From positions 11,036,101 to 11,100,100 of the forward strand of contig NC_134845.1 in NCBI RefSeq assembly GCF_965363235.1: 64,000 nucleotides of DNA, read 5' to 3'. A program made the translations under genes and the position numbers. This DNA is from Mytilus galloprovincialis (taxonomy: Eukaryota; Mollusca; Bivalvia; Mytilida; Mytilidae). The notes below the pieces were generated by a model. It searched no databases and was not told where the DNA came from. It saw only the letters and a list, made by a program, of their open reading frames with translations. Shown here piece by piece: positions 13,120 through 61,831 of this stretch. The first letter of the stretch is position 1, and the number at the start of each line of letters is the position of its first letter.

Positions 13120-13164
13120 TTCAATTATGTTCCTTGATATTTTGAAAATGCACGCAGGGTACAT

Positions 13165-18323: not shown

Positions 18324-18967
18324 TCATATTCTTGTCTTCTCATATCCATATACGAGTGCACCTTTAACAGATGAGAAGACTTTGTCATTTGCAAAAATGA
18401 CAGATTTATCTTTGAAAGCATCCTGAATTTCATTCTGAACTATTGACAGTGATGAGAATCCTCCAACAATGAAAAACCGCTGAATGTTTAGCGCCTTTTG
18501 TTTTGTTATGATATGCTTGATTTCACTTATAGCAGTTCCTATTATTCTCTTAAGCGCATTATCTACGAGTCCTTTCCGTACAATCAACTTTTTCCTAAAC
18601 AAATTAAAATCAATATCCACTTGTTCCGAGTCACTTCCAGATACAGTCTTTCCATATCCATCGACAGCGTCCTTAAATGACATATCACGAAAACGTGTAC
18701 AAAGTTTGTCAAAAGTTTGTATCGGAACATTTAATGTATTGTCTGATGTCTTGCATAATTGTATACATGCTTCTTTCAGTTGTAAATAGCTTGAGGTTTC
18801 TTCTTTCTTCAGACAATCCATAGCATTTTCTCCTATTATAGACGAAAGACGATCAAGAATTCCATCACAAACTATATCGACACCACATAATTTATGGGAT
18901 GGTATAATTGGAACACCTACGTCACAATCGGTGGGTGTATGATACCCAGTTATGTCACATGTGCCGC
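18324..18967 (-). CDS. terminal Hsp70 (HSPA12-like) exon: phosphate-2 and adenosine motifs
   Basis: Acceptor ttttcag opens a phase-1 exon of 644 bp ending in TGA at 18326-18324. It completes the phosphate-2 loop with the previous exon: DLG|GGTCDIT. It then carries PSHKLCGVDIV (family counterpart of the conserved Gly-rich start of the lobe) and the adenosine motif FFIVGGFSSLSIVQ, and ends at VKGALVYGYEKTRI. The ATPase fold therefore looks complete, but the frame stops where human HSPA12A-type proteins continue for roughly another 150 residues. No substrate-binding domain of canonical Hsp70 is present, which is normal for the HSPA12 branch. ATP binding is likely; the client is unknown. Confidence 0.9.
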
Positions 18968-21900: not shown

Positions 21901-24900
21901 TATTTGGTTAAACTTTAGTTTTAATCCAAAATGGTTAAAGTTGAGCATTGTACAGATAATTTTTGACCAATTTCAGCAGACATGGAAATCAGAAATGGAA
22001 AATTCTCCCAAAGCATTATGTTATAACTTTTTTCAAAAAAACTTCAAGTTTGAAGAATATTTAGACTTATTACCTTATAAAGATCAGATAACGTTGTGAA
22101 GGTTAAGAACTGGAATGAACTGTTATGTGCATTAGCTTCGAGATACCAAAAATATATATATATATTTTTTTTTGTTAAATCATCAATAAAAATGATAAAG
22201 TGAAATTATAATTTACTGTTAGTAGCCAATCTAGTTCTATTTTGTTAAATTAGCTGAGAAACGAGGTTGATGAGTTGTGCACTTGCGAGTGAATTTTTGG
22301 ACCTCATTGAATATGTATTCATGTGACCTTCAATTCAACCACTAACGGAAGATGGGTTATTGATGTATTAAGCTATTACAATTGTAAGGGTTTTGCAGAA
22401 CAAATAGTCTCGCCTACTTTTTCTGTTAATCGCAGGCTCAACAAAAATGAGGAAAAAACATTAAAATTTTCCTCTAGATACTATCTTTTGACTAGTACTA
22501 TAAGAAGCTTGTCAAAATTGGGTAAAAATCCAGGATGGTTTATAAAATCTAATGTTTTAAAAACTTTAACTGCAGAGTGTATGTAATGTTAACTGGGAAA
22601 AAACTAGTCCATTTATCATGTTTAAGAGTAATATAGGAAAAAAAGGATTTTTTTTTTACAATCTTTACTTTCGGATATTATCTTATGATCATAAACATTT
22701 AGCTTCTGTCCAAGTTTGATAGAAATCCAAGATATTTGGAGAAAGTTATTTAAAGTTTTAAACCACAGTGCATGATTGAGATTTTAGTTTAACAAAATTA
22801 TGAAAATCAATTTTGGATTGATGTCATTGTCTTGCATGCATATATTTATGGAGTTTCAAGACCTATAAAACAACCATTTTCCGGTTTCAATTCACAAACA
22901 CTAAAGAGCATGCACTTTTGATGTGCCTTATATTCCTACATTCTCAAGTAAGCTCCCTTAAAATCCCTACCCCTTTACTTTCTTATTTGGTATCTTGAGT
23001 TATGTTTTTAATTTTAAAAACAAAAACATCAAGTTAGTAAATAGCTGTAAAAATGACAAAAACAATCAGTAATTACCAGTAATCACTGAAACAACTAGTA
23101 AATACATGTAATTACTAAATTGGCTAGTAATTACAGGTATTTACTGAAATGTTTAGTGATTACGTGTAATTCCTAATTTCACCTATTTACTGTAACATAT
23201 ATAAAGCTAGGCTGTGAACACATGGTAATAGGACCTTCATGTTTACCAGTAAAAAGTATACAGGTATAACCAGGTATATTTAACATGCAAATACGTAGCT
23301 TCTATGGAGATAATACGAATAAAAAAAAAGATGTGGTATGATTGCCAATGAGATAACTCCCCACAAGAGACCAAAACAACACAGAAATTTACAACTATAG
23401 GTCACCGTACGGCCTTCAATAATAAGCAAAGCCCATACCGCATATTTGCCATAAATGTATCAGTGTTCAGTAATTGGCTTGTTATAAGACCATAATAATT
23501 GTTAAATTTGTTTATGACCGGAATAAAATAATTTTGATTCCTCGTTTATTATTGATTTCTAAGCAAACAATAATCAATAAGTACAGTTTATACAAGGAAG
23601 CTATTAAATCAAGAGTTCCAAATGGTGAAGTTGAAATCATCTCTTCATTAATTTTACGGACGCCATCACGAGTTGGTGGACCGTTATGGAATAACTGTTT
23701 CACAAATGATATCGGATATGTTCCTTACGTCGCAAATACAATCCCCTTCCCTTTCATAAATGTGACCTACCTAATTAGATTATTTACCGGCTTTGTTATC
23801 TCATAAGCAACAATGTGGTGGTGCCACATTTGGAGCAGGATCTGCTTACCCTTCCGGAGCACCTGAGTTCACCCCTAGTTTTTGATGGGGTTCGTGTTGT
23901 TTATTCTTTAGTTTTCGATGTTGTGTCATGTGTACTATTGCTTGCTGTTTGTCCTTTTTAATTTTTAACCATGGCGTTCTCGGTTTTTTTTCGATTTATG
24001 AGTTTGACTGTCCCTCTGGTATCTTTCGTCCCCCTTTTATATTATAGGGTTTTCGGCTTTTACATGGTTATGTTTTATATAAGAATTAATTATTTTCAAA
24101 GAATACTGACCATTCGTTTGTATAATTCTAATTTGAATTTCTCAAACATAAGATACGATTTCCGTTCGTCTCTTTGAACGGCAGATTTGTGTTCTTTAAT
24201 CGCTTTGTCTCCACATGCAACAAAATTTTCTAAGGTTACATTGAAGAAAACAGCTGTCGGCACCGAATCTTCAATGACGTATTCAAGTTTCTCTTCCACA
24301 AATGGCGTTTCTGGTAACAAAACAGCATAACGGGAATGCGTTGTTCCAATATCTAGTGCAATGACAGCTCGTACACCGGGTGTATTCAAACAAGTCATTG
24401 GAGGAGCAGTCAATTGGTATGATCCTGCAAATAGCAAATAAAACATATCATGTGCTTAAATGTTATTGATGTATTTCATTTTTTTACACTTCAAATAAAT
24501 CAAGCCCAAGTCTCTGTTCTTCCCTTTTAAGGTCGTCTAGCTGGTGAGTTGCAGTATTCATTAATACTAAATGGATACGTTTCGGTTCATTTTAAGTACG
24601 ACAATAATCACTTATTCACTCAAATCAATTGGTTGAAATAAAAATGTTATTGTTTCTGTTGGAAAAAAACCCGATGAATTTCATAGAATTCTTGTAATTT
24701 CCGTATTAGATAAAGTAGTATACCACTGTTCGAAACTCATAAATCGATAAAAAAAAATCCGGGTTACAAACAAAAACTGAGGGAAACGCATCAAATATAT
24801 TAAAAATATATTAAAAATAATTTCTGTATTTGACAGATTCCATACGCCGGTTAAGTACTTTGAATTAGCTTTCAGACTTATTTACAGTTGCTTACACACA

Positions 24901-27900: not shown

Positions 27901-30900
27901 GAACAAGTGCTTGCAAAGGTTAAAACAAAACTCATCTAAGATATAAGGCTAATAATTTCGTAATCAAGACTTACATTTCGTCTCCAGAGAAGACTCATCA
28001 GTGACGTTGGAATTAAAAAAATCGTTTATTCAAGTTCAAATCAAGAACGAAGTTGAATAGCATAGTGTCTTTTTTTTATGCAATTTGTTGTTGCAAACCC
28101 CTTCCCCGATAAATCAATGTGCTAAATAATCTCATCATAGAAACCAGGATCGAAATTTTATATTTGCGCCGCAAGACGCGCATTTCGTCATTGAAGCTCG
28201 AAACAAAAAATGTAAGAGGCCAAATAAAGTACGGAAGTTGAAGAACATTGAGGACTAACAATTCCTTGAAATATTGCCAAATACTGCTAAGGTATTCATT
28301 CCTGGGGGTAGAAAGGCCTAAGTATTTCCAAAATTCAAAGTTTACCTGAGTTTTCATCTGTAGTTGGTTTGTGTGGAGCGTCTAAATTTTGTGTACAATT
28401 AGTGTTCTGCTCTGTTGCTCCTAAAATCAAAAAATATAATTTTAATTGTATGCAAATTCCTGACAGCCATTTCATAATAGTTTCAAGACAACATACGTTT
28501 AATTCAATAGTTATTGTATAGTTATTCAGCAGTGTAAAAGGGATTTCCTTTACCTAGTTTGTTTTTGCTGTGACTTCCTATATAATGCATTGACTGAACT
28601 ATAGAAGTTAAGTGCAACTGTAATAAGTGAATAAATCAATCAATCAATCAATCAAATCATCAATCTATCAATTTATCAAATTGATTATTTAAGTAGAAAA
28701 TCTAACGATTAACCACAGTCATTATGTTTTTCCTTGATAGAGGGTTGCTGCTCGCAAGGAGATATTAAACCAAGAGTTCCAAATGGTGAAGTTGAAATAA
28801 TTCCTTCTTAATTTGTTTACCACCATTTTCTACATTTGAAAATGCCTGTACCAAGTCAGGAATATGACAGTTCTTGTCCATTCGTTTTTGATGCGTTTTG
28901 TTATTTGATTTTGCCATGTGATTATGGACTTTCCCAATTGATCTTCCTCTAAGTTCAGTATTTTTGTGATTTTACTTTTTACATGTGACATCAAGAGTTA
29001 GTTGGCTGTTATGGAATATTAATTTCACAGATGATAGCGGATGCCAACCCCGTCCCCGTTTCGAGAATGTGAACTACCTAACTAGACTTGTTACCGAATT
29101 TGTACTAACATGAACAACACGATTGGTGCAACATATGAAGCAGGATTTGCTTACCCTCCCGGAGCACCTGATATAACCCCACGTTTTGGTCGGGTTTTTG
29201 TTGCTAAGTCTAGTTTTCGATGTTGTGTTTTGTGTAATTTGTTTGTGTGTTTATATTTTTATTTTATAGCTATGGCGTTGTCAATTTATTTTCGATTTAT
29301 CAGTTTGAATGTGCCTCTGGTATTTAAGTCCCTCTTGTTGACATTGTTTTAGGAAATTAAGACCTCATTCAAACGACAAGAATAAACAATGATATATGTT
29401 TATAATTTCATTTTATGTAATAATGCTGTATTTTAGTTTGATAACAGAATGGTAATCTTCACAATTGTTCTATATATTGAGATTTTCTTTTCTCTGCATG
29501 TACATTCAATGACGTCATTATTAAAACTCTATTGAAAGACAACGTCATAAATCAGGTGATATACGGCCAGTGACTCTTCTTTAGAAACAAGTATATCGCA
29601 AGGCAGTTTGACTATGCACAGCTGCAGTATATAAAAAATCATACGGTCAAGCAGAAACTCAATAATACCTCGTCACAGTAATGATTCTAAGGTCATCAAA
29701 TACAAAGAACTAACAGCTCTGGAAATTTGTTTACCCGTAAACCGTTACATTTGGCAAAAACCCCTGGTAAGCATAATATATTTGTTTACACCTCCTCACA
29801 AATTGATTCCTACTTAAGAATTTTTAATTTTCACTACACAACGGTTACATATGCGACACATATCAATGTGATAATAAAATAAGGAATCTGACTGGTATAG
29901 TTGCAAGAATATGAATTTTTTTTATAAACTTAAATAATTATCAACAGATAAATAGATATTTTACCTTTTTGTATGTCAGTTGTAATTTGATTTTCCATGT
30001 CAATATCATGTGTATAATCGTTTTTTGATGTGTTTGCTGAAATTTATGAAATCGTCTTTTACTTTACGAATTTTCGTGATAGTAATAAAAGGAATCATCT
30101 AACGTTTTACCACATTTTCTTATTGTTATTTCAATAAAACAGATAAAAGAATTAGTAGGTAGCATCTGTTTTGTTTTACAACTTTTGTTTATGTCACATT
30201 TTTTGAACCCTCTATATCATTTGCTGAGACTTTTTAAATACTAGCATGGACTATACTATGGTTAGAAGTGAACGTTTACTCGTCTTGGAAATTATCACAT
30301 GTGACATTATGCCTATATTCAAATCTTATCTTTTTAGCATATACAAAAGCTAGTGTATAAAAAATGCAAGCATTTATGTTAAATAATAACCCATCAATTT
30401 CATTATAAAATACAAATATGTTGACGGAAAACGTAAATTTAGCTTTCACTGCTAACAGTCATGTACCATACATATTTGCTTACACGTTACTTTCTTAGCA
30501 TCTTTTTTAACATTCATAAGTAGTTTGTCAAATGACCAATTTTCTTTTAGCTGTTCTTTAACGTCTGCAATTGAACGAATTGAACACAAAACGAAAATAA
30601 AAAGTAAGGCTCTTCCTGATGGCCATTTACTTGCTGCTTGTAGACTTAGATGGTACATAATGGTCATCAAATTTTCATTGTAGACTTAACCACTAAGTTC
30701 GCTAGAGATTAAGTGTTAGCAATTTAGAAAGAGCTGTCATTCAGAATTTGTGCGGATCTAACAGGATAACGTTGTTTGAAAGGACATTGATGTTATTTGA
30801 AGGAAAATTCCAGTCGTCGGTTTAAAAAAAAACTTACGATCAATCTTAGTCGTAAATTGTTTTGTGCAACTGACTCCGGGTATACGGATTTGGTTTAACT

Positions 30901-42900: not shown

Positions 42901-44377
42901 TGTTTAAGACAAATCATTGGTCGTATAGGTACTGCATTATTTTCCATTTGCAATAGATTTGGAAACCGTGAACATAAATCCGCCATAGATTAGGAAATTA
43001 CAAAACTTGCCATAGATTAGGATTGTAAAAAATCTGCCATAGAATTGGAATGGCATGACGTCACATTTGCCATAGATTAGGAATCTGCCATGGATTTGGA
43101 ACCCACCATAGATTTGAGTCCTACATACATATTATATATCAAGTCAATATAATGTGTCTACAACTCAAAATGGTTTTGAAAATCTTACAAGAACATTTTT
43201 ATTCAAAAGACATATCTTAAGGAAGTGAACAGCCGATAGTCTAAAAATTATCAAATAATGAGTACTTTTTCTTTTCCTTTCTTGTTACGACAAGTTACGG
43301 CAAGTTCTGTTGATTTTTGTTCGTTCGTAAGAAGTTGAGAAATCTATATTACGAAATTAAATACATTTCATACAAAATAAATTCACATTGTTTCAAATGG
43401 ATGTCAGAAACAAGCAACAAGTGCTTATTTTAATATGTCGACTTAAATCTCAGCAGTTCCAGATGAGAAAATACTTGAAAAGGTAACGGACGACAAAAGA
43501 CGATGGACGACAAACGCAAAATGATGAGAAAAACTAACTTGAGCACAGAAGGGTAAAACGCTTCAATATATGATCAAATCTGTTGTCGCACTGTGTGAAA
43601 CGATTATTTAAATCTTATCATGGCTTATGCTTTGCACATCGATTTAAATCAAGTATTTATCAATCCAAATGCCATTCATTAGGGATACTCACATTCCTTG
43701 ACATGAAGCTTTATATGTTCACTATCTACGGTTTCTTTAAAATTACTAACTCTGCAAACATATATCCCTGCATCTTCTGGTGCCAAACTGAGAATTGTTA
43801 AAGATTTGGGATCAACTGTTCTATACTTTTTTTGTATTTTCTAAGTCACATGTAATTTCCTTTTCAGGCGTGATGTGCAACCATTCAATTTTTCGGATGC
43901 AACCATCTATTGACGACATCGATGCATCGAATCGACAACTACAACCGACAAATTCGTTAACATCTTGCGGCTTGACAACAACAGAAATTGTCTTATCTAA
44001 AACAGTCAAGGCATTGATAAGAATCTAATAAAATATTATTAATTCAAAACATTTCATATAAACAATCAAAAGATAACAAACGATGAATAAATCATATTTA
44101 TATTCACAAAAGTTGTACTTACTTTTTTAAGAAATTAATGCAAAAAGGCGTCAAAAACATGAATAGACAATGATCAGCTAATCCTACATTGTGTCATATT
44201 GGCCTTATGGAATACACACTCTCATTGATAGAAGATAACATACCCATTAAAGAGTATCATTAAAACGAATACAGACATAAAGAACAAAGCACGTCTTACA
44301 TCAACAGATCGACCTAGAGTAGCTCACTTTTAATAGGACACAGGTAAATAGTTGTTTCAACGGCTATCATACATTGA

Positions 44378-44417
<40 letters not shown>

Positions 44418-46739: not shown

Positions 46740-46781
<42 letters not shown>

Positions 46782-52700: not shown

Positions 52701-55700
52701 AGCGAGTTAAACATAAAAATGTTACGTTCATTTCATTTCATTTTGGGTTATCAGGTATTAGAACAAATCTAGACAAGGTGAAGGTTATTTGGAAAGGGAC
52801 GGAACGGATAAACTAGGGATTGGGGTCGGGTTCCTCCAAAATTGTGACAAGTTTCTTAGAGGATTTTAATGAATTGGACATTTATCCAAAATCAAACATA
52901 CAATAAAAACAAAAGGCTCAAATGATATTACTATTTAAAATTGAGTATCTGAAACAAAAATGTGTAAAGTATTTATGATTCTTAATACACACTACATTTC
53001 AATAAATATCCATGTATTTATCATTTTTGTCAAGAACTCAAAACTGATGTGATTCCGATACGAAATTGAACATCGAGTTTCAGGCATAGACAATCTTCTT
53101 TTACGTGACACTTAAGGTCAACATGAATCGAAACAAACGAACATATTCTAGCAAAGGTCGTAAATATTAAATTGGTAGGGAGACCTTAACTCCCAAAAGA
53201 ATACTACCCAACTTTAGTCATAAATCGTGTTTTATTTGGTATTCTAATGCAAATCATTAAAAATGGCATAATAAACTTCGTAATTCTAGTTTCAAAGGTT
53301 TTGACTCATAGAATCAAATTATCATTAAAATAAACTAATACGATAGCCCCCCAAAAAAATTAATAGAAGAAAATATATCATACGAATAACAAATTCAGAA
53401 TGGCGGATATCTTCTGAAACCCCTGGACTCCTTTATTGTCATAAAAAAGTAAATAACAAACACGATATGATGTTTATATAAAACATCTAAAATATTTACT
53501 ATCTTACCAATGTCCCGATCCGATAAACAATTGAAAAGAATCTCGACATTAAATGCGATCAACAATTACTGAATGCAATATATTTTGTCGGTAATACATT
53601 ATAGATTCGTAGTAAATATTAAAATAAACGTACCAACAGCACTTAGATAAGTATATATGGATTCATTGATTAAAAATATTTTGATAACTTAAAAATTATA
53701 AGAAACCCGTTTTATATGACTTTAAAAGCTAAGAATATTTATTGATGCGATCTTTCGAAGTTTTACTATTCATTTTTGGTCTGTATGCTGGTTCTTTAAT
53801 AATTAACTTCATTTCCAAAGAGAGTTTATCTGAAATAAGTACCGTGTAATTGTGGATCAAAAGAAGTACCAGGTTGCCGAGTACCTTCATGATACAGAAC
53901 CAGTTCTTTGCGGTCTGAAATAAAACAAATTTGAAAAATTAGACGTAAAAATAATCCTTACAGACTACTTGTTTTAAGTTTGTACATTTACGACGATTCA
54001 AGTACATATAATAGATATTTTGTAAAAGAAGTGAACAATTAGTATCTAGTTTTACAAACGTTGCCGATTGTAAATTAAAACCCGTAGACTCCAATTTGCT
54101 GTAAATACAACAGTGCATCGTTTCAATAACTTCTATTTCGATTCTTTGAATAACGAATCAGTATTTCAATTAGGAAGAGTGGTGTGAGTAAGGAAAAACT
54201 AATGTCTTAATAGAAACAACAAGTGAAACTGCGAGCTACTGCTCACTGATGATACCCCCGCCGCAAGTGGATAATATTAATAGTGTAAAAATATGGAAGT
54301 GTTCGGTAAACAGGAAGTTGTCGAGTGATGAATCTGAAAACGCATCACACGGTATAGCTGACTTATAAAAATCCTGAAACCAAATTTCAGAAATCCTTGT
54401 ATTGTAGTTCCTGAGAAAAATGTGACGAACATTTTTAACTTGGTTATCATGTGTAAAATCATACAAGTGTTCGGTAAACAGGAAGTTGTCGAGTGATGAA
54501 TCTGAAAACGCATCACACGGTATACCTGACTTATATAAATCCTGAAACCAAATTTCAGAAATCCTTGTATTGTAGTTCCTGAGAAAAATGTGACGAAAAT
54601 TTTCAACTTGGCTATCATGTGTAAAATCATACAAGTGTTCGGTAAACAGGAAGTTGTCGAGTGATGAATCTGAAAACGCATCACACGGTATAGCTGACTT
54701 ATATAAATCCTGAAACCAAATTTCAGAAATCCTTGTATTGTAGTTCCTCAGAAAAATGTGACAAAAATTTTCAACTTGGCTATCATGTGTAAAATCAGAC
54801 AAGTGTTCGGTAAACAGGAAGTTGTCAAGTGATGCATCTGAAAACGCATCACACGGTATGGCTGACATATATAAATGTTGATACCAAATTACAGAAAGGG
54901 TGGATGTGTAGTTCCTGAGAAAAATGTGACGAAAGTTTCATGGGACGGACTGACTGACGGACGGACGGACTGACGGACGGACTGACGGACGGACTGACGG
55001 ACGGACGGACTGACAGACAGAGGTAAAACAGTATACCCCCCCTTTTTTAAAGCGGGGGTATAAAAATTGTGATTGTTATAAGATATATTACTATAATTTA
55101 ATGAAGGAAAGTCGGTATGGCAGAAGGGTAAGAAAAAAAATTGTAAGATTATTTCAATTATCTATATATTCATCTAATGTTGTTTGAAATCTGTCGAACA
55201 AATAATACAGAAGTTGTAATGAAGAATTTCACAATGTCTTTTTTATACAAATAAGGCTGTCATTAGTTACAGGATACAGCTTAATAAAATTTGTACATCA
55301 TTGCTGTTCATAATAAGGATTGTTTCAAATTTTTAAACGTTTGTCATCTTTTGTTGAAGTTAAATACCTCTGACTTTAATGTGTTACTTAAAAAAAAACT
55401 AGAAGTATTTGGACTTACTATCAAATAATATCAATAGAAAGTGAATGGCAGAAAAAAATAAAGAAACGTGCAAAGGAATGAGCCAAGCAAGAGGTTAAGT
55501 CTTCTCTTAAATCGATACTAGATGTAGCTATTGTAATAGTTAAAACAAACATTTATTAAAAATGGTTTATAGACTTACCTGAGCAGTAATCTTTACACTT
55601 TATGTTTAGATCGCACAGAAGAAAAACAGTCATAAGAAAGGAACCTAAACACCACATAATAGAAACAGTTAATACAATATCATGATTGAACTATCATTCA

Positions 55701-58700
55701 AATGATTGAGAAAAAAATAATTTACAATATAATGAATATAAAGTTCAAAGGACATCATTTTGTTTAATATCTATTTAAATCCATACTAAAAAATTATACA
55801 GATCGCATAGAAAATTGTTGGTACAGTTCTATATATAATGGTACAGTTATTACAAAAGTTTCAACAAGTTAAATTTGGCAGATCACTGTGTTGGGGGATT
55901 CAAGTTATGATCACGGTTGACGTATAAAGTCATATTCTCAATTTTGTTGTGAACTTGGATACTGTCATCAGATTATTGGGGGGTGTCCGATGTTATTCTG
56001 TGGTTTACCTATTGTGATGTACTATCATATTATTTAATTCATGTATTGCTCTGTCCTGAGTATTTATCTGTACTGTATTCCTGTCACTTAATCTTGTCTT
56101 TTTAGTGGTATTTTTATCATTGTCATATTACAGAGAGGTTAGTCTAACCATACAATCAGGTTCAATACCCAACTTTTTCTTAAAATATCCAGTACCAATT
56201 CAGGAATATGGCAGTTGTTATCAAGTAGTTTGTCTCTATGTATGTTGGTGTTTGATTTTGTAGCAGTTCTATGCTGTTCTTTTTTTTCCTCTTTTTGTCG
56301 ATGTGCTTCCCTGGGTTAAGGTTTGTGACCGGAATTCGTTTTTGTTCAATCGATTTATGACTTTTGAACAGCAATATACTACTGTTGCCTATATTTATAT
56401 AGATTTATTGATATCTTTGAATAGATATACAAGTCACTAGGCTAACTATATGAAAAATTTGCAAGAACAAGAAAAGATCATGCACACTAACATAGTTACT
56501 AGGTACTAGGATTATAATTTAATACGCCAGACGTGCGTTTCGTCTACATGAGACTCATCAATGACGCTCAGATCAAAATAGTTATAAAGCCAAGTGTAAA
56601 AAGTTGAAAAGCATTGAGGATCCAAAATTCCAAAAAAGTTGTGCCAAATACGGCTAAGGTAATCTATTCATGGGATAAGAAAATCCTTAATTTTTCGAAT
56701 AATTGATACTTTTGTAACCATGCAGGAAATTTATAAAAATGACCACATAATTGATATTCATGTCAACATCAAATTGCTGACTACTGGGCTGGTGATACCA
56801 TAGGGACATATTCTATATCATTTAGATGAACAATAATATATAACATTTAAAATCATAAAACTTGCATTCAAGTAGAAACTTATCCATCTTAATGTGAATA
56901 AGGTCTTCATAAAAAAAAATATATTCAAGTTGAATAAAATAAATTGAATTTAAATTATGAAAAAAAAGCCAATTAAATCAAATATTCAATTTGAATAAAA
57001 ATTATACATAAAGGCAACAGTAGTATACCTCTGTTAGAAATTCCAGTTTATAGATAAAACAACCAGACCAATTGAATAAAGTATACCAATTAAAGTATGA
57101 TTCTAACATTCAATCAAATACAATGAATTAAGCAAACAAAGTAAGAAGATACATGAAGATGACTGAGAACATATAGTAGTTTCTTACCAAAGATTATGAA
57201 AAGAAAAATCAATCCAGTGAGTCCATTTTTATAGTTGATACGATATTTGTTTTCTAAAAAAAGAAACAATTTCTTTAAATTTACATTTTTCTTTAGTCAC
57301 AATATGATTAATATATAAAAAAGAACCGTTTGCAATCACGTCTTAAGAACCGTTTGGGAACGCGTGTTATGTTCAAAATAACATTCATACTGTTCATACT
57401 ATAATCGTTCGAAATACACTTATTTCAATTATGTCTCTAATGGTAATACAGCAACGGGATGTTCCAGTTGTCTCGGCCCCATTTCCTCGATTATGACATC
57501 GCTTAATGATCACACAATGTGTTGTCTCCAAGGGTAACTTGATGGATGCCACAATTGGATCGTAATCTGCTTATCCTACTTGGATACTTCTATAAACACA
57601 CACGATGTTTGTTAAAGTGATGTTACTCAATTTGTAGATTTGTAAGTAGCATTTTTTGCATTTTTCGTTGTCTATTTTTTTTTTTGTAAGGCGTTGTTAG
57701 TTTCTCTCAAATAATGAGTTTGTAGGTCGTTTTATATATTCCGCCTCTTTTGTACATTTTTCGGTAGTTACTTTTACAGACAATTATATAATTGTTCCTG
57801 TTGATAACGGCTTCGGTGTATGAAATTCATAAAGTGATATTGGCATCTTGTCCCGTGTTTAAATTAGAACGTGTACAAAAATGATTTAAAATAAATAAAA
57901 TAAATGTTTTAGTACGTGCGGTATGGTCTCAATTGACATAACATAGCCAAAGATATAACACCAAATTAGCTTCAAGCTATATATTTATTTGGATGTACCA
58001 AAAATTTTAAAAATCTGAGATTAAAAAAATTCGAAAAGGTTGAAATATAATTAATCATTAAACCAAAAGACTATCAACTGAAAAAGACGGCATTACATTT
58101 TTATTTTAAAAACAATATCACAATATTTCGAAGGAAGAAAGATAAGAAAGAAGTAATATTCAAACTCCCTTTCGAAAATGCAACTAAGATATTGGTGTGT
58201 CATATTTGTCTTACCACTTTGTATGTACAAAAAAACTAGACAACCGTTGGAGAATGAATATTTAGAATTAAAAACGTTTAAAGGTCACTACATGTACTCC
58301 AAATTTCAAATTATATTCGATTATAACTACATCAGGGAACTAAAGTGTCATGATACGTAAGTTACATTTCATCACAGAAGAAAAGATTAAGATCTAGCTT
58401 TGAAAAGTGTACATATCGGTGGTCATTCCATTTCTGTTAACCAAATCATGATGGTGTCTGAAAGAAATATTTCGAAGGGTAGACTCCACTTTACTGTTTA
58501 GAAAACTAGGTTAAATAGTCTTTTTGAGAAGAAATCCTCTATCATGATATAAATAGTCACCTGTTATGTTTACAGTCAGATCTACGTGTTCTACTGTTGA
58601 TTGCCTGAAACATAAAGGTTACCTCATATGAAAGTGTTTCTTGCATTTGCCTTTCCAAATGAACTAAGAAAACATTAAATTAACTTATAATACCTTAGTA

Positions 58701-61700: not shown

Positions 61701-61831
61701 GTATGAAATATACATACAAAACGCAGACATATTCAATTTACATTTTGCACTTATAATCATACTTTAGACAGCAAAATATAAACGTTAAAGAAATTCAAAC
61801 TTACGAAAATGAAAATAATGATTTTTTTCAT
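18324..61831 (-). CDS. gene model: signal peptide - Cys-rich ectodomain - TM - Ig-like - repeat linker - HSPA12-like Hsp70 ATPase
   Basis: This entry spans a minus-strand exon ladder of 27 proposed coding exons, each listed separately, with coding length 3,855 bp after discounting one extra base (about 1,284 residues). Approximate layout in residues: 1-20 signal peptide; 20-184 Cys-rich ectodomain; 185-212 stalk; 212-254 membrane helix and flanks; 255-377 charged segment; 378-572 two Ig-like modules; 573-845 linker of 21-27-residue exons; 850-1284 Hsp70 ATPase. All junctions from exon 2 to the first Hsp70 exon are phase 1, and the Hsp70 exons run 1-0, 0-0, 0-1, 1-stop. What is seen: compatible splice sites, open frames and recognisable domains. 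What is inferred: that all belong to one transcript. The weakest joint is the 6.8-kb gap between the 52.6 and 45.6 kb exons; there could be two genes. A one-base frameshift in the 43.8 kb exon could make this allele non-functional, or be an assembly error. Confidence 0.5.
19334..19475 (-). CDS. Hsp70 (HSPA12-like) exon
   Basis: A 142-bp exon, acceptor tttttcag, donor G|gtaacg, phase 0 in and 1 out. It encodes SGIIKEQLIVVDESNAILAY and ends YLLIDLG, the first half of the phosphate-2 loop. SGI directly after the previous exon's CCEL matches the family's conserved 'AGI..EQL' stretch. An ATPase core exon. Confidence 0.9.
19860..19992 (-). repeat. dispersed repeat family A (in Hsp70 intron)
   Basis: Shows 'ggccgtacggtgacctatag', 'gtgtcattttggtcttttgt' and 'attggcaatcatactatatc', the minus-strand version of the family signature. 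Confidence 0.75.
20491..20709 (-). CDS. Hsp70 (HSPA12-like) exon
   Basis: A 219-bp phase 0-0 exon, acceptor atatcag, donor gtaggt. It encodes 73 residues including EVVWVMTVPDVWEDNAKGFI, the family signature around 'WVLTVPAIW...AK', and ends ICCEL at the splice. The region forms part of lobe I of the ATPase. Confidence 0.92.
20810..20990 (+). repeat. retroelement 3' tail fragment
   Basis: Ordered match to the tails at 6.0 and 23.9 kb: 'ttagttccctatgttttgtt', 'tgccatgacgttgtcggttg', 'gagtttgaatattcc'. An inverted fragment of the same family lies at about 21.19-21.33 kb ('agaccagagggacattcaac'). Confidence 0.5.
21602..23197. mobile_element. foldback-like TIR element with palindromic 'agtaattac' arrays (copy 2)
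   Basis: Left terminus tgttacagtaaataggtgaa is matched by right terminus ttcacctatttactgtaaca. Inside both ends lie tandem motifs of the type 'ggtaattactggtaattac' (21,632-21,735 and 23,068-23,170). Flanks read 'atatata' on both sides, a possible but low-complexity target duplication. The interior carries retroelement-derived coding debris. About 1.6 kb, non-autonomous, sits in an intron of the Hsp70 part. Confidence 0.75.
21857..22560 (+). pseudogene. retroelement coding remnant captured inside the TIR element
   Basis: An 80-codon frame (IFDQFQQTWKSEMENSPKAL, then FEEYLDLLPYKDQITL) resembles the C-terminal tail seen after reverse-transcriptase domains in non-LTR elements. A second frame lies at 22,323-22,586. 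Both are short and interrupted. Assignment is by resemblance only. Confidence 0.4.
23325..23452 (+). repeat. dispersed repeat family A
   Basis: Clear copy: 'gatgtggtatgattgccaat', 'ccccacaagagaccaaaaca', 'ggtcaccgtacggccttcaa'. It lies about 130 bp from the right end of the 21.6-23.2 kb element. Confidence 0.8.
23560..24045 (+). mobile_element. retroelement 3' end (degenerate)
   Basis: An open frame ends VPNGEVEIIS ... GGPLWNNCFTNDIGYVPYV. It is followed by 'ggtgccacatttggagcagg', 'ccggagcacctgagttcacc' and the common tail 'gagtttgactgtccctctgg'. The same order of blocks recurs at 28.77-29.34 kb and, in part, at 39.35-39.59 and 50.08-50.17 kb, where it follows a reverse transcriptase. It is therefore a truncated retroelement copy. 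Confidence 0.6.
24111..24424 (-). CDS. first Hsp70 (HSPA12-like) exon: phosphate-1 loop
   Basis: A 314-bp exon, acceptor atttgcag, donor ATG|gtcagt, phase 1 in, 0 out. After a short lead (GSYQLTAPPMTCLNTPG) comes VIALDIGTTHSRYAVLL, the phosphate-1 loop of the Hsp70/actin ATPase fold, then a region with VACGDKAIKEHK and ERKSYLMFEKFKLELYKRM, matching HSPA12 order. The phase-1 acceptor lets it be spliced directly to any upstream linker exon, which is the main evidence that the linker exons and Hsp70 form one protein. Confidence 0.92.
24715..24800 (+). repeat. dispersed repeat family C fragment
   Basis: 'gtagtataccactgttcgaa' plus 'actgagggaaacgcatcaaa' match the start of the 14.2 kb copy. Confidence 0.55.
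25395..25457 (-). CDS. linker exon immediately before Hsp70 (63 bp)
   Basis: Phase 1-1, acceptor aatttcag, donor G|gtaggt. Encodes EKTVKMDSVYQSHELRNDYN plus a Thr. It has no counterpart at 34.2-34.4 kb in the duplicated unit, where about 280 bp is missing. Polar, no motif. Confidence 0.6.
25552..25626 (-). CDS. 25-residue repeat linker exon (75 bp), unit 2
   Basis: Phase 1-1, acceptor ttccag, donor G|gtaaat. Encodes ETTSQNTSCTH..EEPHEPTTDDKS. One of six near-identical 75-bp exons sharing QNT, PHEPTTD and an acidic end. Confidence 0.72.
26213..26287 (-). CDS. 25-residue repeat linker exon (75 bp), unit 2
   Basis: Phase 1-1, acceptor ggttccag, donor G|gtaaat. Encodes EAVSQNTRCTHIFDEPHEQT and then TDEKS. 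Paralogue of the 35,170 exon by position. The plus-strand frame over it is a shadow. Confidence 0.72.
26370..26480 (-). repeat. short repeat bearing 'cacccgcgaaatcgcgggca'
   Basis: Contains a small GC-rich palindrome (cccgcgaaatcgcggg) in AT-rich DNA, typical of the end of a small DNA transposon or MITE. Limits are uncertain. Confidence 0.3.
26700..26893 (-). repeat. dispersed repeat family A
   Basis: Nearly complete: 'aataaggccgttataactgt', 'tatcggggccttttatagtt', 'gactatgcggtatgggcttt', 'ggccgtacagtgacctatag', ending 'caatcataccacatcttctt'. Confidence 0.85.
28135..28330 (+). repeat. dispersed repeat family B
   Basis: 'accaggatcgaaattttata', 'gcgccgcaagacgcgcattt' and 'gaagaacattgaggactaac'. 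A related fragment ('agactcatcagtgacgttgg') lies at 27,960-28,060. The counterpart at 35.99-36.18 kb is part of the tandem duplication. Confidence 0.65.
28346..28420 (-). CDS. 25-residue repeat linker exon (75 bp), unit 2
   Basis: Phase 1-1, acceptor gattttag, donor G|gtaaac. Encodes GATEQNTNCTQNLDAPHKPT and then TDENS. Paralogue of the 36,438 exon, with which it shares the diagnostic start GATEQNTN. Confidence 0.72.
28765..29345 (+). mobile_element. retroelement 3' end interrupted by a family E repeat
   Basis: 'agttccaaatggtgaagttg' at 28,774 and 'tggctgttatggaatattaa' near 29,001 are adjacent in the 23.56-24.0 kb copy. Here they are separated by a family E repeat at about 28,825-28,990. 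The tail 'ggagcacctgatataacccc' follows. A nested insertion within the retroelement remnant. Confidence 0.55.
29965..30036 (-). CDS. 24-residue linker exon (72 bp), unit 2
   Basis: Phase 1-1, acceptor aatttcag, donor G|gtaaaa. Encodes ANTSKNDYTHDIDMENQITT and DIQK. Paralogue of the 38,754 exon; flanking intron sequence (cgatttcataaatttcag) is identical. Confidence 0.68.
30484..30564 (-). CDS. 27-residue helical linker exon (81 bp), unit 2
   Basis: Phase 1-1, acceptor attgcag, donor T|gtaagc. Contains KENWSFDKLLMNVKKDAKKV, likely helical and basic. Paralogue of the 39,838 exon with the same WSFDKLLMNV core. Confidence 0.7.
31405..31568 (-). repeat. dispersed repeat family A
   Basis: 'tatcggagccttttatagct', 'gaccgtacggtgacctatag', 'gtcattttggtctcttgtgg', 'ggcaatcataacacatcttc'. 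Confidence 0.8.
31703..31880 (-). pseudogene. decayed Ig-like exon of the duplicated unit
   Basis: The 3' part matches the intact exon at 40,780: NVAVNDSFITCDFHI, then GKYELVLKT, FGAVIKRTYDLKI and a good donor (G|gtaaat). Upstream, the sequence is shifted by one base and meets an in-frame TGA about 12 bp before the conserved ACGAAT, and the first ~140 bp of the exon with its acceptor is not recognisable. It is probably skipped; its phase-1 donor is now useless. Confidence 0.7.
32885..32936. repeat. TA microsatellite
   Basis: An AT dinucleotide run at the equivalent place to the longer one at 44.38 kb in the other duplication unit. Confidence 0.7.
32975..33050 (+). repeat. family E fragment
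   Basis: 'taagccaggaatatgacagt' and 'tccaatcgtttgatgtg' match the start of the family seen at 28.85 kb. Confidence 0.45.
34460..34534 (-). CDS. 25-residue repeat linker exon (75 bp), unit 1
   Basis: Phase 1-1, acceptor gttccag, donor G|gtaaat. Encodes EAISQNTSFTQILDEPHEPT and TDYKS. The Cys of its paralogues is Phe here. Confidence 0.7.
35170..35244 (-). CDS. 25-residue repeat linker exon (75 bp), unit 1
   Basis: Phase 1-1, acceptor ggttccag, donor G|gtagat. Encodes EATSQNTSCTELLDEPHEPT and TDEKA. Confidence 0.72.
35990..36180 (+). repeat. dispersed repeat family B
   Basis: 'attgcgccagacgcgcgttt', 'actcaccagtgacgctcgaa', 'agagcactgaggaccaaaat'. Confidence 0.75.
36205..36405 (-). repeat. 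dispersed repeat family A
   Basis: 'tatcggggccatttatggct', 'gactatgcggtatggacttt', 'ggccgtacggtgacctacag', 'ggcaatcataccccatcttc'. Absent at the equivalent place in the other unit, so inserted after the duplication or lost there. Confidence 0.85.
36438..36512 (-). CDS. 25-residue repeat linker exon (75 bp), unit 1
   Basis: Phase 1-1, acceptor gacttcag, donor G|gtaaac. Encodes GATEQNTNYSQNLDEQHKPT and TYENY. More diverged at its end than the other copies. Confidence 0.68.
37800..38165 (-). repeat. MITE-like element, inverted copy of the 15.0-15.4 kb element
   Basis: 'tcggtcacgagttgaatact', 'tcttgatccgaca', 'caacgcctattgttgtgtga' and 'aataaccacgtttatttcac' are the reverse complement, in reverse order, of blocks at 15.0-15.3 kb. 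Confidence 0.65.
38754..38825 (-). CDS. 24-residue linker exon (72 bp), unit 1
   Basis: Phase 1-1, acceptor aatttcag, donor G|gtaaaa. Encodes ANEAKIDCPHDNDQENKRTT and DKQE. Very polar, probably disordered. Confidence 0.68.
39345..39590 (+). repeat. retroelement 3' tail
   Basis: 'cacgacgggtgccacatgtg', 'ggagcgcctgagatcatccc', 'tcatggcgttgtcagtttat' and 'gactgtccctctggtata' match in order the tails at 23.8 and 50.1 kb. Confidence 0.65.
39838..39918 (-). CDS. 27-residue helical linker exon (81 bp), unit 1
   Basis: Phase 1-1, acceptor aatttcag, donor G|gtaagc. Contains GQEQVREHWSFDKLLMNVEK followed by DAKNAV. Follows the Ig-like exon in both duplication units. Confidence 0.72.
40780..41061 (-). 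CDS. Ig-like domain exon, unit 1
   Basis: A 282-bp phase 1-1 exon (94 residues), acceptor actttcag, donor G|gtaaat. Starts DKPEISHSLDRKTID, ends FGAVIKRTIDLKIPS. The pattern 'FITCDFP ... GKYELVIKT' fits a beta-sandwich with a B-strand Cys and an F-strand Tyr, although a canonical second Cys is not in the usual place. A weak Ig or Ig-like assignment by pattern, supported by its neighbour at 43.7 kb. The role of such a domain on this side of the membrane helix is unclear. Confidence 0.65.
41308..41949 (-). mobile_element. tandem-repeat element with GACGGACT tail (short copy)
   Basis: Starts 'caagtgaaactgcgagttac' and 'tgataccccgccgcaagtgg', carries diverged ~150-170 bp repeats ('cgagtgatgaatctgaaaac', 'acgcatcacac'), a 'gacggactgacgg' microsatellite and ends 'agcgggggtataa'. 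The ends form a short inverted match (tacccccgc / gcgggggta). Same family as 54.2-55.07 kb. An antisense frame with SVCPSVRPSV is an artefact of the microsatellite. Confidence 0.75.
42099..43125. mobile_element. foldback-like TIR element with 'aatctatggcagatt' arrays (copy 3)
   Basis: Perfect terminal inverted repeats: tgtaggactcaaatctatgg at the left and ccatagatttgagtcctaca at the right, continuing imperfectly for about 65 bp as tandem 'aatctatggcagattcc' motifs. The other duplication unit has an uninterrupted version of the target near 32,530, so this is an insertion of 1.03 kb after the duplication. A retroelement fragment (HYDLVDHYGMFISQMFIDML near 42.8-42.9 kb) lies inside. No transposase. 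Confidence 0.8.
43693..43996 (-). CDS. Ig-like domain exon with a one-base poly-A frameshift
   Basis: Acceptor ctgttttag, donor T|gtgagt. The length is 304 bp where 303 would keep the phase-1 ladder. The first part reads DKTISVVVKPQDVNEFVGCS with WLHITPEKEITC. The last part, in the next frame, reads SLTILSLAPEDAGIYVCRVS, the classic F-strand 'DxGxYxC' of Ig domains, and ends LHVKE. The frames meet at a run of seven A's (43,827-43,833); one A fewer would join them. It is either a true inactivating mutation or a homopolymer error in the assembly. Confidence 0.75.
44381..44416. repeat. TA microsatellite
   Basis: An uninterrupted AT dinucleotide run, in an intron. Confidence 0.9.
45558..45719 (-). 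CDS. acidic linker exon before the Ig-like exons (162 bp)
   Basis: Phase 1-1, acceptor cttctag, donor G|gtaagt; 54 residues. Includes DLESDSNCLQVQDINTN, DISAFDEITEEQEVLIDKTE and LPDKLSVC. Strongly acidic, no known domain. This stretch has no counterpart in the downstream duplication unit. An upstream open frame continuing to 45,927 is not supported by a start or acceptor. Confidence 0.6.
46472..46494. repeat. TA microsatellite
   Basis: AT dinucleotide run at the left flank of the 46.6 kb palindrome. Confidence 0.85.
46617..46707. repeat. perfect 42-bp palindrome with 7-base loop
   Basis: Arm 46617-46658 contains 'aaaaaatccaacatttccgg' and arm 46666-46707 is its exact reverse complement, around the loop 'agtttta'. 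Outer sequences match only loosely. Probably the centre of a MITE or foldback insertion; flanked by TA microsatellites on both sides. Confidence 0.9.
46741..46782. repeat. TA microsatellite
   Basis: A long AT dinucleotide run; translates as repeated IYIYIY in an antisense frame that is not a gene. Confidence 0.9.
46990..47113. repeat. small imperfect palindromic element
   Basis: Left 'caacggcatcaattagttat' is matched by right 'accaattaatgccgttgtcg', with 'gtcgcaaat' / 'atttgcgac' inside. It is unusually GC-rich in the middle. A MITE-like hairpin. Confidence 0.65.
48100..48396. mobile_element. short TIR element ending 'gtggggcat'
   Basis: Left 'gaatgccccac' and right 'gtggggcataa' are inverted; the interior holds 'ggacggacggacgaccga'. 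I recognise this as a common bivalve non-autonomous element. The 61-codon frame across it is not a gene. Confidence 0.7.
48960..50170 (+). mobile_element. degenerate retroelement with reverse transcriptase and 3' tail
   Basis: The reading order is clear although frames are broken. NIKTFDFSTLYTTIPHTKL (about 49.14-49.21 kb) is the RT motif with the first catalytic Asp. GIPMGTNCAPLLADLFL follows near 49.43, and FNFRYIDDVLSLNI near 49.56 is the catalytic YxDD box. MVNFPFLCSNIPAAPAYGVY and SLKKFYGRHHD (49.75-50.0) form the C-terminal part. Stop at about 50,030, then the tail 'acgacgggtgctgtatacgg'. Stops near 49.28-49.48 show it is dead. It lies in the presumed intron between the 52.6 and 45.6 kb exons, in the opposite orientation to the gene. 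I read it as Penelope-like or related; the class is tentative. Confidence 0.8.
49699..50031 (+). pseudogene. longest intact frame of the reverse transcriptase remnant
   Basis: 110 codons covering the C-terminal thumb-like region: KIYDKRDDFNFPMVNFPFLC, IPAAPAYGVYVSQLIRYSRA, KFYGRHHDRIGHYDKSVSEI. No endonuclease motif is visible downstream in frame. Confidence 0.75.
50465..52135 (+). repeat. family E repeat split by an inserted element
   Basis: The left part ('gattttgccttttgattaag', 'ttccacggaatttagtattt') stops at 50,585 and the right part ('gttttttgtgattatacttt') starts after 52,103. Joined, they follow the order of the uninterrupted copy at 28.85-28.99 kb. Confidence 0.65.
50586..52103. mobile_element. 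foldback-like TIR element with 'gcgttataacgc' palindrome arrays (copy 4)
   Basis: Left terminus acggaagcgtattagcgcca is matched by right terminus tggcgctaatacgcttccgt; identity continues through 'cacacatttttac' and 'cttcctatgtttgcg'. The left array (50,637-50,702) has about three and the right array (51,682-52,052) about nineteen units of the palindrome tttgcgttataacgcaaa. Flanks 'agtattttt' and 'agttttttg' suggest an 8-9 bp target duplication. The interior has no transposase; its frames are not supported. Confidence 0.85.
52546..52680 (-). CDS. juxtamembrane exon (135 bp)
   Basis: Phase 1-1, acceptor atttcag, donor G|gtaagt; 45 residues, DHLQQPINCTAHQLNGAKSR, then DELSFNKEMTTTRSSTQADC. Ser/Thr-rich, no known domain. 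Last exon upstream of the 6.8-kb gap rich in transposons. Confidence 0.65.
52720..53842. other. intron, no feature seen
   Basis: AT-rich DNA without recognisable repeat or exon. Confidence 0.4.
53843..53914 (-). CDS. juxtamembrane exon (72 bp)
   Basis: Phase 1-1, acceptor tatttcag, donor G|gtactt (weaker than the others). Encodes DRKELVLYHEGTRQPGTSFD and PQLH. Resembles the stalk exon at 59,370 (both have a 'YHE..R.' core before QP), suggesting a duplicated short exon on either side of the membrane helix. Confidence 0.5.
54218..55066 (-). mobile_element. tandem-repeat element with GACGGACT tail (long copy)
   Basis: Starts 'caagtgaaactgcgagctac' and 'gatacccccgccgcaagtgg'. Four copies of a ~168-bp unit begin at about 54,299, 54,466, 54,635 and 54,802 ('gtgttcggtaaacaggaagt'). 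A 'gacggacggactgacgg' microsatellite follows (54,945-55,018) and the end is 'agcgggggtataa'. The 168-bp period is a multiple of three, so an antisense frame stays open for 210 codons; this is an artefact, not a gene. Confidence 0.85.
55579..55644 (-). CDS. transmembrane exon, second half (66 bp)
   Basis: Phase 1-1, acceptor ggtgtttag, donor G|gtaagt. Encodes GSFLMTVFLLCDLNIKCKDY and CS. The hydrophobic run continues from the 57,188 exon and ends at a polar, basic flank. Confidence 0.65.
56510..56815 (+). repeat. dispersed repeat family B (near full length)
   Basis: 'ttaatacgccagacgtgcgt', 'gagactcatcaatgacgctc', 'agcattgaggatccaaaatt' and the far end 'aaaatgaccacataattgat'. Confidence 0.75.
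57010..57065 (+). repeat. family C fragment
   Basis: 'aaaggcaacagtagtatacc' matches the start of the 14.2 kb copy. Confidence 0.5.
57188..57253 (-). CDS. transmembrane exon, first half (66 bp)
   Basis: Phase 1-1, acceptor tttttag, donor G|gtaaga. Encodes NKYRINYKNGLTGLIFLFII and F. With the 55,579 exon it makes one helix of about 22-24 apolar residues (GLTGLIFLFIIF joined to GSFLMTVFLLC), the only membrane span found after the signal peptide. Other frames of this exon contain stops. Confidence 0.68.
57640..57790 (+). repeat. retroelement 3' tail fragment
   Basis: 'aaggcgttgttagtttctct', 'aataatgagtttgtaggtcg' match the general tail order at 23.9 kb, poorly conserved. Confidence 0.4.
58561..58590 (-). 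CDS. possible 30-bp stalk exon
   Basis: If the acceptor is 'caacagtag' and the donor G|gtgact, this phase 1-1 exon encodes EHVDLTVNIT. A longer version from the better acceptor at 58,604 has a phase-1 stop and the wrong length. Plausible but weak; leaving it out does not disturb the frame. Confidence 0.25.
59370..59417 (-). CDS. stalk exon (48 bp)
   Basis: Phase 1-1, acceptor ttctttccag, donor G|gtaagt. Encodes IKIYYHETNRLLQQP after a split codon. Upstream use of 'tttcag' at 59,440 would give 70 bp and break the frame. Confidence 0.5.
59534..59615 (+). repeat. dispersed repeat family A (truncated)
   Basis: 'gaagatgtggtatgattgcc', 'cacaagagatttaatgacac', 'gaaattaacaactataaatt'. Confidence 0.75.
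59630..59815 (-). repeat. family E repeat
   Basis: Reverse complement of the 28.83-28.99 kb copy: 'aaagtaaaatcacaaacttc', 'aagaccataatcacatggca', 'aacacatcaaaaacgattta', 'ggtacaggcatttccaaatg'. Confidence 0.75.
60253..60564 (-). CDS. Cys-rich ectodomain exon (312 bp)
   Basis: Phase 1-1, acceptor tctgtag, donor G|gtaaag; 104 residues. Key stretches: KYVWSGGLRNIKCSSERFQP, SSQCIFLKSFCNEEGQVI, DVSCRCDHTRGYAFV and LEEDCSCYTKKC. Nine Cys and NxS/T sites (QNVS, INGS, NNNT) suit a secreted, disulfide-bonded domain. I recognise the 'CRCD.TRGY ... EDCSCY.K.C' order as one recurring in predicted bivalve surface proteins, but I know no named domain or ligand for it. Confidence 0.78.
60878..61091 (-). 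CDS. second coding exon: signal peptide remainder and ectodomain start (214 bp)
   Basis: Acceptor attacag, phase 0; donor G|gtaaat, phase 1. Begins MLVDCIIGALPTLNFKCPQY, continuing the signal peptide of the first exon, then has VVCPRNPLDYSCLCNTENTT and YCSNDKPEFAGI. Even Cys spacing and glycosylation site suit an extracellular protein. Confidence 0.78.
61805..61831 (-). CDS. first coding exon: start of signal peptide (27 bp)
   Basis: ATG at 61831-61829 encodes MKKIIIFIF and meets a consensus donor (gtaagt) in phase 0, exactly the phase of the next exon's acceptor. Joined, the start reads MKKIIIFIFMLVDCIIGALP, a typical basic-hydrophobic leader with a likely cleavage soon after. Too short to be found as an ORF. 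The rest of the first exon upstream is 5' UTR. Confidence 0.72.

Follow-up and report, generated by a model that had tools for sequence, protein, structure and literature searches.

The locus described here lies on contig C8 of the 1.38-Gb genome of Mytilus galloprovincialis, within a 64-kb stretch (C8:11036101-11100100) that was analysed as a whole and is called the window; positions given without a contig are counted from its first letter. Twenty-seven exons with AG/GT borders follow one another on the minus strand from 61831 to 18324, a span of 43.5 kb, and their translation, with one base of an A run in the exon Ig1 omitted, yields a model protein of 1,296 residues. Two deposited M. galloprovincialis proteins correspond to parts of this model, P0006 (425 aa, LOC143085068) and P0009 (648 aa, 'heat shock 70 kDa protein 12A-like isoform X3'), and were taken as NCBI annotation on account of their RefSeq-style LOC and isoform names. 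The exons are given in gene order, each followed by its support, where placement refers to the AG/GT borders and relatives to the single-chain proteins described further below.

61805..61831, minus: e1, start codon and first half of the signal peptide (MKKIIIFIF); placement, identical in P0006
60878..61091, minus: e2, end of the signal peptide and start of the Cys-rich ectodomain; placement, relatives, P0006
60253..60564, minus: e3, main Cys-rich ectodomain exon and query for the family search; placement, relatives, P0006
59370..59439, minus: e4, juxtamembrane, phase 1 in and phase 2 out; relatives, P0006, phases repeated at the second locus
58561..58604, minus: e5, juxtamembrane, phase 2 in and phase 1 out; relatives, P0006, phases repeated at the second locus
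57188..57253, minus: e6, first half of the transmembrane helix; placement, relatives, hydropathy, P0006
55579..55644, minus: e7, second half of the transmembrane helix, absent from P0006; placement, relatives, hydropathy
53843..53914, minus: e8, cytoplasmic tail exon; placement, relatives, P0006
52546..52680, minus: e9, cytoplasmic tail exon, one copy here and three in M. edulis P0001; placement, relatives, P0006
45558..45719, minus: e10, cytoplasmic tail exon; placement, relatives, P0006
43693..43996, minus: Ig1, I-set exon with a 1-nt frameshift at the A run near 43835, then a stop; Pfam, PDB, P0006 terminus
40780..41061, minus: Ig2, second module, judged Ig-like by eye and unmatched in databases; placement, relatives
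39838..39918, minus: c1, linker exon with the Met start of P0009 inside; placement, P0009
38754..38825, minus: r1, linker exon; placement, P0009
36438..36512, minus: r2, 25-residue linker repeat; placement, P0009
35170..35244, minus: r3, 25-residue linker repeat; placement, P0009
34460..34534, minus: r4, 25-residue linker repeat; placement, P0009
31703..31851, minus: truncated Ig2 copy from the tandem duplication, excluded from the model, its acceptor unconvincing by eye
30484..30564, minus: c2, linker exon, copy of c1, absent from P0009; placement, relatives
29965..30036, minus: r5, linker exon; placement, P0009
28346..28420, minus: r6, 25-residue linker repeat; placement, P0009
26213..26287, minus: r7, 25-residue linker repeat; placement, P0009
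25552..25626, minus: r8, 25-residue linker repeat; placement, P0009
25395..25457, minus: r9, final linker exon, absent from P0009; placement, relatives
24111..24424, minus: H1, Hsp70 domain, phosphate-1 motif DIGTT; placement, hhalign, P0009
20491..20709, minus: H2, Hsp70 domain; placement, hhalign, P0009
19334..19475, minus: H3, Hsp70 domain with the connect motif DESNAI and DLG as its end; placement, hhalign, P0009
18324..18967, minus: H4, Hsp70 domain, GGTCD and VGGFSS, stop five residues past the nucleotide-binding domain; placement, P0009

The order, coordinates and strand of these exons had been proposed in a sequence-only reading of the window, and the deposited proteins bear them out, mostly letter for letter. 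P0006 is sequence-identical to e1-e6, e8-e10 and the start of Ig1 as far as the stop, and P0009 is identical to the window from Met601 in c1 to the end, minus c2 and r9. Every exon has such letter-for-letter support except e7, Ig2, c2 and r9 (Ig1 and c1 in part), and these four are matched in the relatives P0001 and P0002. The motifs named in the reading, ALDIGTTHSRYA, DLG/GGTCDIT (the stroke marks the exon border) and VGGFSSL, were all found in the window. Its claim that all junctions from the second coding exon to the first Hsp70 exon are in phase 1 was slightly too broad, as 21 of the 22 junctions between e2 and H1 are in phase 1 and e4/e5 is in phase 2. The signal peptide and single membrane helix that it had described agree with hydropathy, by which the model has exactly two hydrophobic segments, at residues 1-24 and 231-261.

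The model was searched against 5.8 billion proteins, and among 5,239 candidates five matches were obtained. Four of these hold ectodomain, helix, tail and Hsp70 domain in one chain. They are P0001 (M. edulis, 1,259 aa), P0002 (1,194 aa, whose 3,749-bp contig has no introns) and the two M. californianus proteins P0003 (1,061 aa) and P0004 (894 aa); the remaining match is an Ig protein of a snail. Since the gene spans 43.5 kb in the genome, the P0002 contig must derive from spliced RNA or a retrocopy. A mussel protein carrying the ectodomain together with HSPA12, which the earlier reading had proposed to look for, was thus found as a single protein in M. edulis and M. californianus, in addition to P0002. 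All four relatives have, like the model, exactly two hydrophobic segments by hydropathy, the signal peptide and one helix. Identity to P0001 and P0002 amounts to 96-97% in the ectodomain, 86% in Ig1, 73-74% in Ig2, 50-67% in the linker and 85-86% in the Hsp70 part; a 27-residue exon that the relatives have between e10 and Ig1 could not be matched convincingly to the window. The divergence from M. edulis, much greater in Ig, linker and Hsp70 than in the ectodomain, had suggested that a paralogue might have replaced the 3' half. This was rejected as being without support in the assembly, since the sole close genome match of H4 is H4 itself, the next best among the matches listed being 34% identical.

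At the locus itself NCBI annotates two genes, and the split between them coincides exactly with a frameshift in Ig1. This 304-nt exon carries one surplus A in the run near 43835, by which the frame shifts and runs into a stop; the sequence-only reading had the exon present and in its right place in the order, but overlooked the lesion. P0001, P0002 and P0003, the relatives that have an Ig1 exon, read through the site. The frame is also kept if Ig1 is skipped, and the model protein is continuous only with Ig1 skipped or the surplus base omitted. According to the NCBI annotation, a short receptor ending in Ig1 would be followed by a separate gene for a soluble HSPA12-like protein with its start in the linker. 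P0006 and P0009 are indeed separate entries, each matching the window letter for letter. However, P0006 terminates exactly at the frameshift, and P0009 begins at a Met within a phase-1 cassette exon that has an acceptor site, with no first exon of its own. Moreover, M. edulis and M. californianus encode the relatives as single proteins, and at a second locus, described below, a membrane exon and an Hsp70 exon are in-frame direct neighbours. We therefore judge two genes to be improbable. The proposal of one gene for a receptor with an Hsp70 tail is thus well supported by the relatives and by the second locus, and is qualified at this locus by the Ig1 frameshift and the two-gene annotation. P0006 also skips e7, and by hydropathy its membrane helix is gone. 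For annotation in general, one frameshifted cassette exon can break such a gene in two.

A second explanation takes the frameshift at face value: it would disable the long form in this individual or in the species, leaving the short receptor or forms that skip Ig1. The stop within the 304-nt exon points this way, as does the divergence from M. edulis, which is 14-50% for Ig, linker and Hsp70 and 3-4% for the ectodomain; M. californianus P0004, which reads to the Hsp70 domain without either Ig exon, is an example of what an Ig1-skipping form could look like. On the other hand, the model has no further frame lesion, its remaining exons and the splice sites are intact, most catalytic motifs are kept, and the surplus A may be a one-base assembly error in the run. 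A damaged allele is an unlikely explanation, although one to be taken seriously.

The part of the protein between the membrane and the Hsp70 domain is built from cassettes. Ig1 matches Pfam I-set (25.1 bits against a cut-off of 23.7, E 1.8e-5), with titin as its best PDB match (9.4e-12), while Pfam and PDB searches with Ig2 gave nothing significant; of the Ig-like modules that had been read from the sequence, the first is thus confirmed and the second found no Pfam match. The Ig part behaves as a cassette, because P0004 lacks both Ig exons and yet continues into Hsp70. The linker is acidic (pI 4.6) and contains an old tandem duplication, in which ~45.0-34.1 kb corresponds to 33.5-24.9 kb with ~72-87% nucleotide identity in collinear blocks. 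Given this duplication and the three copies of e9 in P0001, the length of the tail varies by cassette duplication and splicing.

The introns of the same gene hold repetitive sequence. In the large e9/e10 intron, an open frame on the plus strand at 49483-50031 resembles, by eye, a reverse transcriptase fragment (YIDD), with no Pfam match, and a 20-bp palindromic unit, TTTGCGTTATAACGCAAAGG, is arrayed at 51682-52051 (~19 copies) and 50638-50701 (~3 copies). Related tandem arrays of 163-bp and 168-bp units lie in two introns, at 41393-41847 and 54283-54938, and are possibly parts of a mobile element.

Hsp70 proteins are known as soluble chaperones, and the identity of the C-terminal part of the model, residues 858-1296, was examined at several levels. 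By hhalign it aligns with E. coli DnaK (94%, E 1.2e-7, 187 columns), and it matches the NCBIfam model HscA at 5e-9, though far below that model's own cut-off; taken alone, it has no Pfam HSP70 match at E<=1 and no match in a PDB sequence search. A protein search with the Hsp70 profile returned only three proteins at E<=1e-3 among 4,289 candidates, all of them from Mytilus. One study lists DxGTT, GGxT and LxGG as phosphate and adenosine motifs and EPxAA as a conserved connect motif (PMC12692333). The window has DIGTT and GGGT for the first two, and IVGG with I for the L of LxGG; the connect motif is unmatched, as the window reads ESNAI with the glutamate retained. In P0001, DLSGGT replaces the DLGGGT of the phosphate-2 motif, as it also does in P0002, which is of M. 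edulis type. Because of ESNAI in place of EPxAA, and of DLSGGT in M. edulis, the domain may hydrolyse ATP weakly or no longer at all. The Hsp70 part is acidic, with a pI of 5.8, against a group mean of 7.17 in the same study (PMC12692333).

When H4 was searched against the genome, at least 101 matches were found, itself at 100%; the others listed are 20-34% identical, the best at 3.1e-19, with frames of HSPA12-like appearance. The search with H4 of the second locus yielded at least 151 matches. We take these ~150 H4-type exons to be HSPA12, a label drawn from the NCBI names of P0009 and P0010 and from general features of the group. The likeness of the window gene to HSPA12A and HSPA12B lies in the DxGTT, GGxT and VGG motifs and in these related exons; it differs from them in being fused to a receptor, in having the nucleotide-binding domain only, in ESNAI for EPxAA and in its acidity. 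An Hsp70 orthogroup is reported to have a mean of 68.1 genes per bivalve versus 4.4 in others (PMC8382680).

The sequence-only reading had described a full Hsp70 ATPase core. The nucleotide-binding domain is there, but the HSPA12 C-terminal (substrate-binding) domain is missing: five residues follow the nucleotide-binding domain in the window gene and 15 at the second locus. For comparison, 38 other HSPA12-type loci, chosen and not random, were taken from the 99 other H4 matches listed, and the extension was scored by run-on residues or by tblastn. A C-terminal extension of ~146 residues (range 143-152) occurs at 31 of the 38 and is absent, in the stretch read, from seven. The first 27 loci, all with the extension, had left out rows with short frames or stops; 11 such rows were then added, of which seven were without and four with it. 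In one paralogue the extension matches positions 401-474 of Pfam HSP70, the substrate-binding region. Absence of the C-terminal domain was considered as a hallmark of the receptor and rejected, since those seven loci also lack it. The tail of the receptor therefore ends in the nucleotide-binding domain only, a state that a minority of mussel HSPA12-type genes share, and this is an HSPA12-derived domain, not a complete HSPA12 protein. The seven added loci that end right past the nucleotide-binding domain are L051-L056 and L058, at C14:68.89, C5:44.99, C8:93.05, C14:68.82, C12:36.16, C8:56.92 and C8:78.33 Mb.

The receptor-Hsp70 arrangement recurs at C8:2.285-2.295 Mb (L038 and L039), 8.8 Mb from the window. 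This second locus was spotted by a same-strand pair of ectodomain and H4 exons 6.4 kb apart (C8:2287660/2294033), and it repeats the order within ~10 kb: an ectodomain exon with a hydrophobic start, e3, two small exons, a membrane exon, H1, H2, H3 and H4 lie on one strand, the start-codon exon being absent from the reading. The two small exons share the odd phase-2 junction of e4/e5. From e3 to H1 the frame is open over all junctions, with the membrane exon joining H1 directly and in frame, and neither Ig nor linker exons occur in the reading. The three Hsp70 introns have the same places and phases at both receptor loci, the H1-H4 borders of the second having been read from its sequence. Joined without three residues at exon borders, the Hsp70 part of the second locus matches Pfam HSP70 at 35.9 bits (cut-off 20.6).

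A possible third locus lies on C6, where an ectodomain exon at 74.8626 Mb is followed on the same strand by HSPA12 exons at 74.831-74.805 Mb. No membrane exon was placed between them, and this candidate retains the C-terminal domain. Its H4 (L028) and the H4 of the second locus form a group (UFBoot 80), and the window clade joins these two with a support of only 55, so that one fusion event and several are indistinguishable. In a later genome search with H1, inspected by eye, only the matches at C8:2.29 Mb and on C6 adjoin an ectodomain exon, the window's own divergent H1 being unlisted. By count, an HSPA12 exon lies downstream of 3 of 163 ectodomain exons (random mean 1.1-1.2, maximum 5), which is no excess over chance. 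The case for putative receptor-Hsp70 genes is instead one of sequence continuity at two loci.

The ectodomain belongs to a large family. At least 163 e3-type exons were found in the genome as the union of two queries, the first of which scored at least 150 among 209 candidates; excluding the queries themselves, they are 34-56% identical to one or other query. A protein search with the ectodomain gave six matches among 354 candidates, namely Mytilus proteins and P0002. Related ectodomains (42-49% identity) occur in P0007 and P0008, M. galloprovincialis proteins named 'Hypothetical predicted protein' and 'titin'; in P0007 a membrane helix and then Ig domains follow. These two differ from the window gene in having no Hsp70 and in I-set domains that are more numerous and better matching. 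An AlphaFold2 model of the ectodomain was poor (pLDDT 35), and confident only around the membrane helix. Two randomly picked members of the family were read over 20 kb, and showed an I-set exon ~13 kb downstream in one and a Roc-like P-loop exon ~9.5 kb downstream in the other.

The Roc-like exon scores 26.5 bits, just under the Pfam Roc (PF08477) cut-off of 27.0, and has at least 132 matches in the genome. Of the 163 e3 exons, at least 35 have it on their own strand within 60 kb on the downstream side; one has it upstream, and none has it on the opposite strand. The counts were built from listed matches, and family size and pair counts are therefore lower bounds. Random placement (200 placements each, with the sizes of contigs C3 and C7 assumed and those of C10 and C13 corrected) gave a mean of 0.56-0.63 and a maximum of 4. 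With 100 kb instead of 60 kb, the exon was downstream of 36 of 163 and upstream of 8 of 163. Ig exons of the P0007 kind accompany 3 of 163 (random 0.02). Death domains were considered as tails and rejected: only one of the 163 exons has such a domain up to 60 kb downstream, and random placement gives a mean of 0.54-0.57. From their position, the Roc-like exons are probably spliced to the ectodomain; they resemble Roc-type GTPases, and the tails of these sister loci would be GTPase-like, not Hsp70.

Two regions stand out within the family. At C12:26.09-27.39 Mb, 11 e3 exons lie on the minus strand and each of them is followed, at a distance of 6-21 kb, by a Roc-like exon that shares 87-100% identity with the query, which suggests recent tandem amplification of this cluster. 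At C14:46304729-46330449, on the minus strand, fifteen Ig exons of near-equal score lie downstream of the e3 exon C14:46357762, possibly forming a many-Ig receptor.

We consider it probable that the window holds one gene for a type I receptor, with an HSPA12-type nucleotide-binding tail serving as a switch, within a modular mussel family in which the Hsp70 form is rare. In such a receptor the Cys-rich ectodomain would bind a ligand outside the cell and the single helix would cross the membrane. With ordinary topology, the Ig, linker and Hsp70 parts would be in the cytoplasm, and the tail there would consist of an optional I-set cassette, phase-1 linker cassettes and the terminal HSPA12-type nucleotide-binding domain. 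A signal could pass via this flexible, acidic and length-variable tail to the ATPase-type domain, where binding of ATP or ADP would set the shape of the tail and so govern the docking of cytoplasmic partners or the clustering of receptors. Client folding is unlikely to be its role because the substrate-binding domain is missing. Because Hsp70 takes the place that a GTPase-like exon has in sister loci, a nucleotide-dependent switch would be the simplest common role of the two kinds of tail.

The fused Hsp70 domain might instead steer endocytosis and sorting of the receptor, and not signalling, comparable to HSPA12A on SorLA. In the vertebrate pair, HSPA12A binds acidic clusters of the SorLA tail in an ADP/ATP-dependent manner and alters endocytosis (PMC6345817), so that there, too, a type I receptor has an HSPA12 ATPase acting on its cytoplasmic tail, and the linker of the mussel protein is likewise acidic. 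However, the clone that bound SorLA consists of the C-terminal 163 residues of HSPA12A (PMC6345817), the part that is absent here; in vertebrates two proteins are bound through that region, whereas the mussel protein appears to be one covalent chain without it. We regard a trafficking role as rather doubtful.

On a wider and more tentative view, to which we give somewhat less than even confidence, mussels would have a receptor system of their own, in which one ectodomain is combined through phase-1 cassettes with interchangeable tails, many of them Roc-like GTPases and a few Hsp70 ATPases, and the Hsp70 fold is used as a transmembrane signalling switch. We know of no counterpart for such a use of this fold. 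In the open-access literature searched, no description was found of a receptor-HSPA12 fusion or of the ectodomain family, and this large mussel receptor family is apparently undescribed so far. If the proposal is true, the nucleotide-binding domain of Hsp70 can be a signalling switch and the mussel gene offers a ready test system; mussels, as filter feeders living among microbes, would have a very large family of receptors that naturally suggests itself for immune recognition; and the expansion of HSPA12 in bivalves would be explained in part as raw material for receptor building.

Elsewhere in the window, an uninterrupted frame of 370 aa on the minus strand at 12058-13167 encodes a subunit of a Cys-loop ligand-gated channel (Pfam Neur_chan_LBD 3.3e-39, Neur_chan_memb 2.3e-14). 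It is apparently intronless across both Pfam matches, and possibly a retrocopy.
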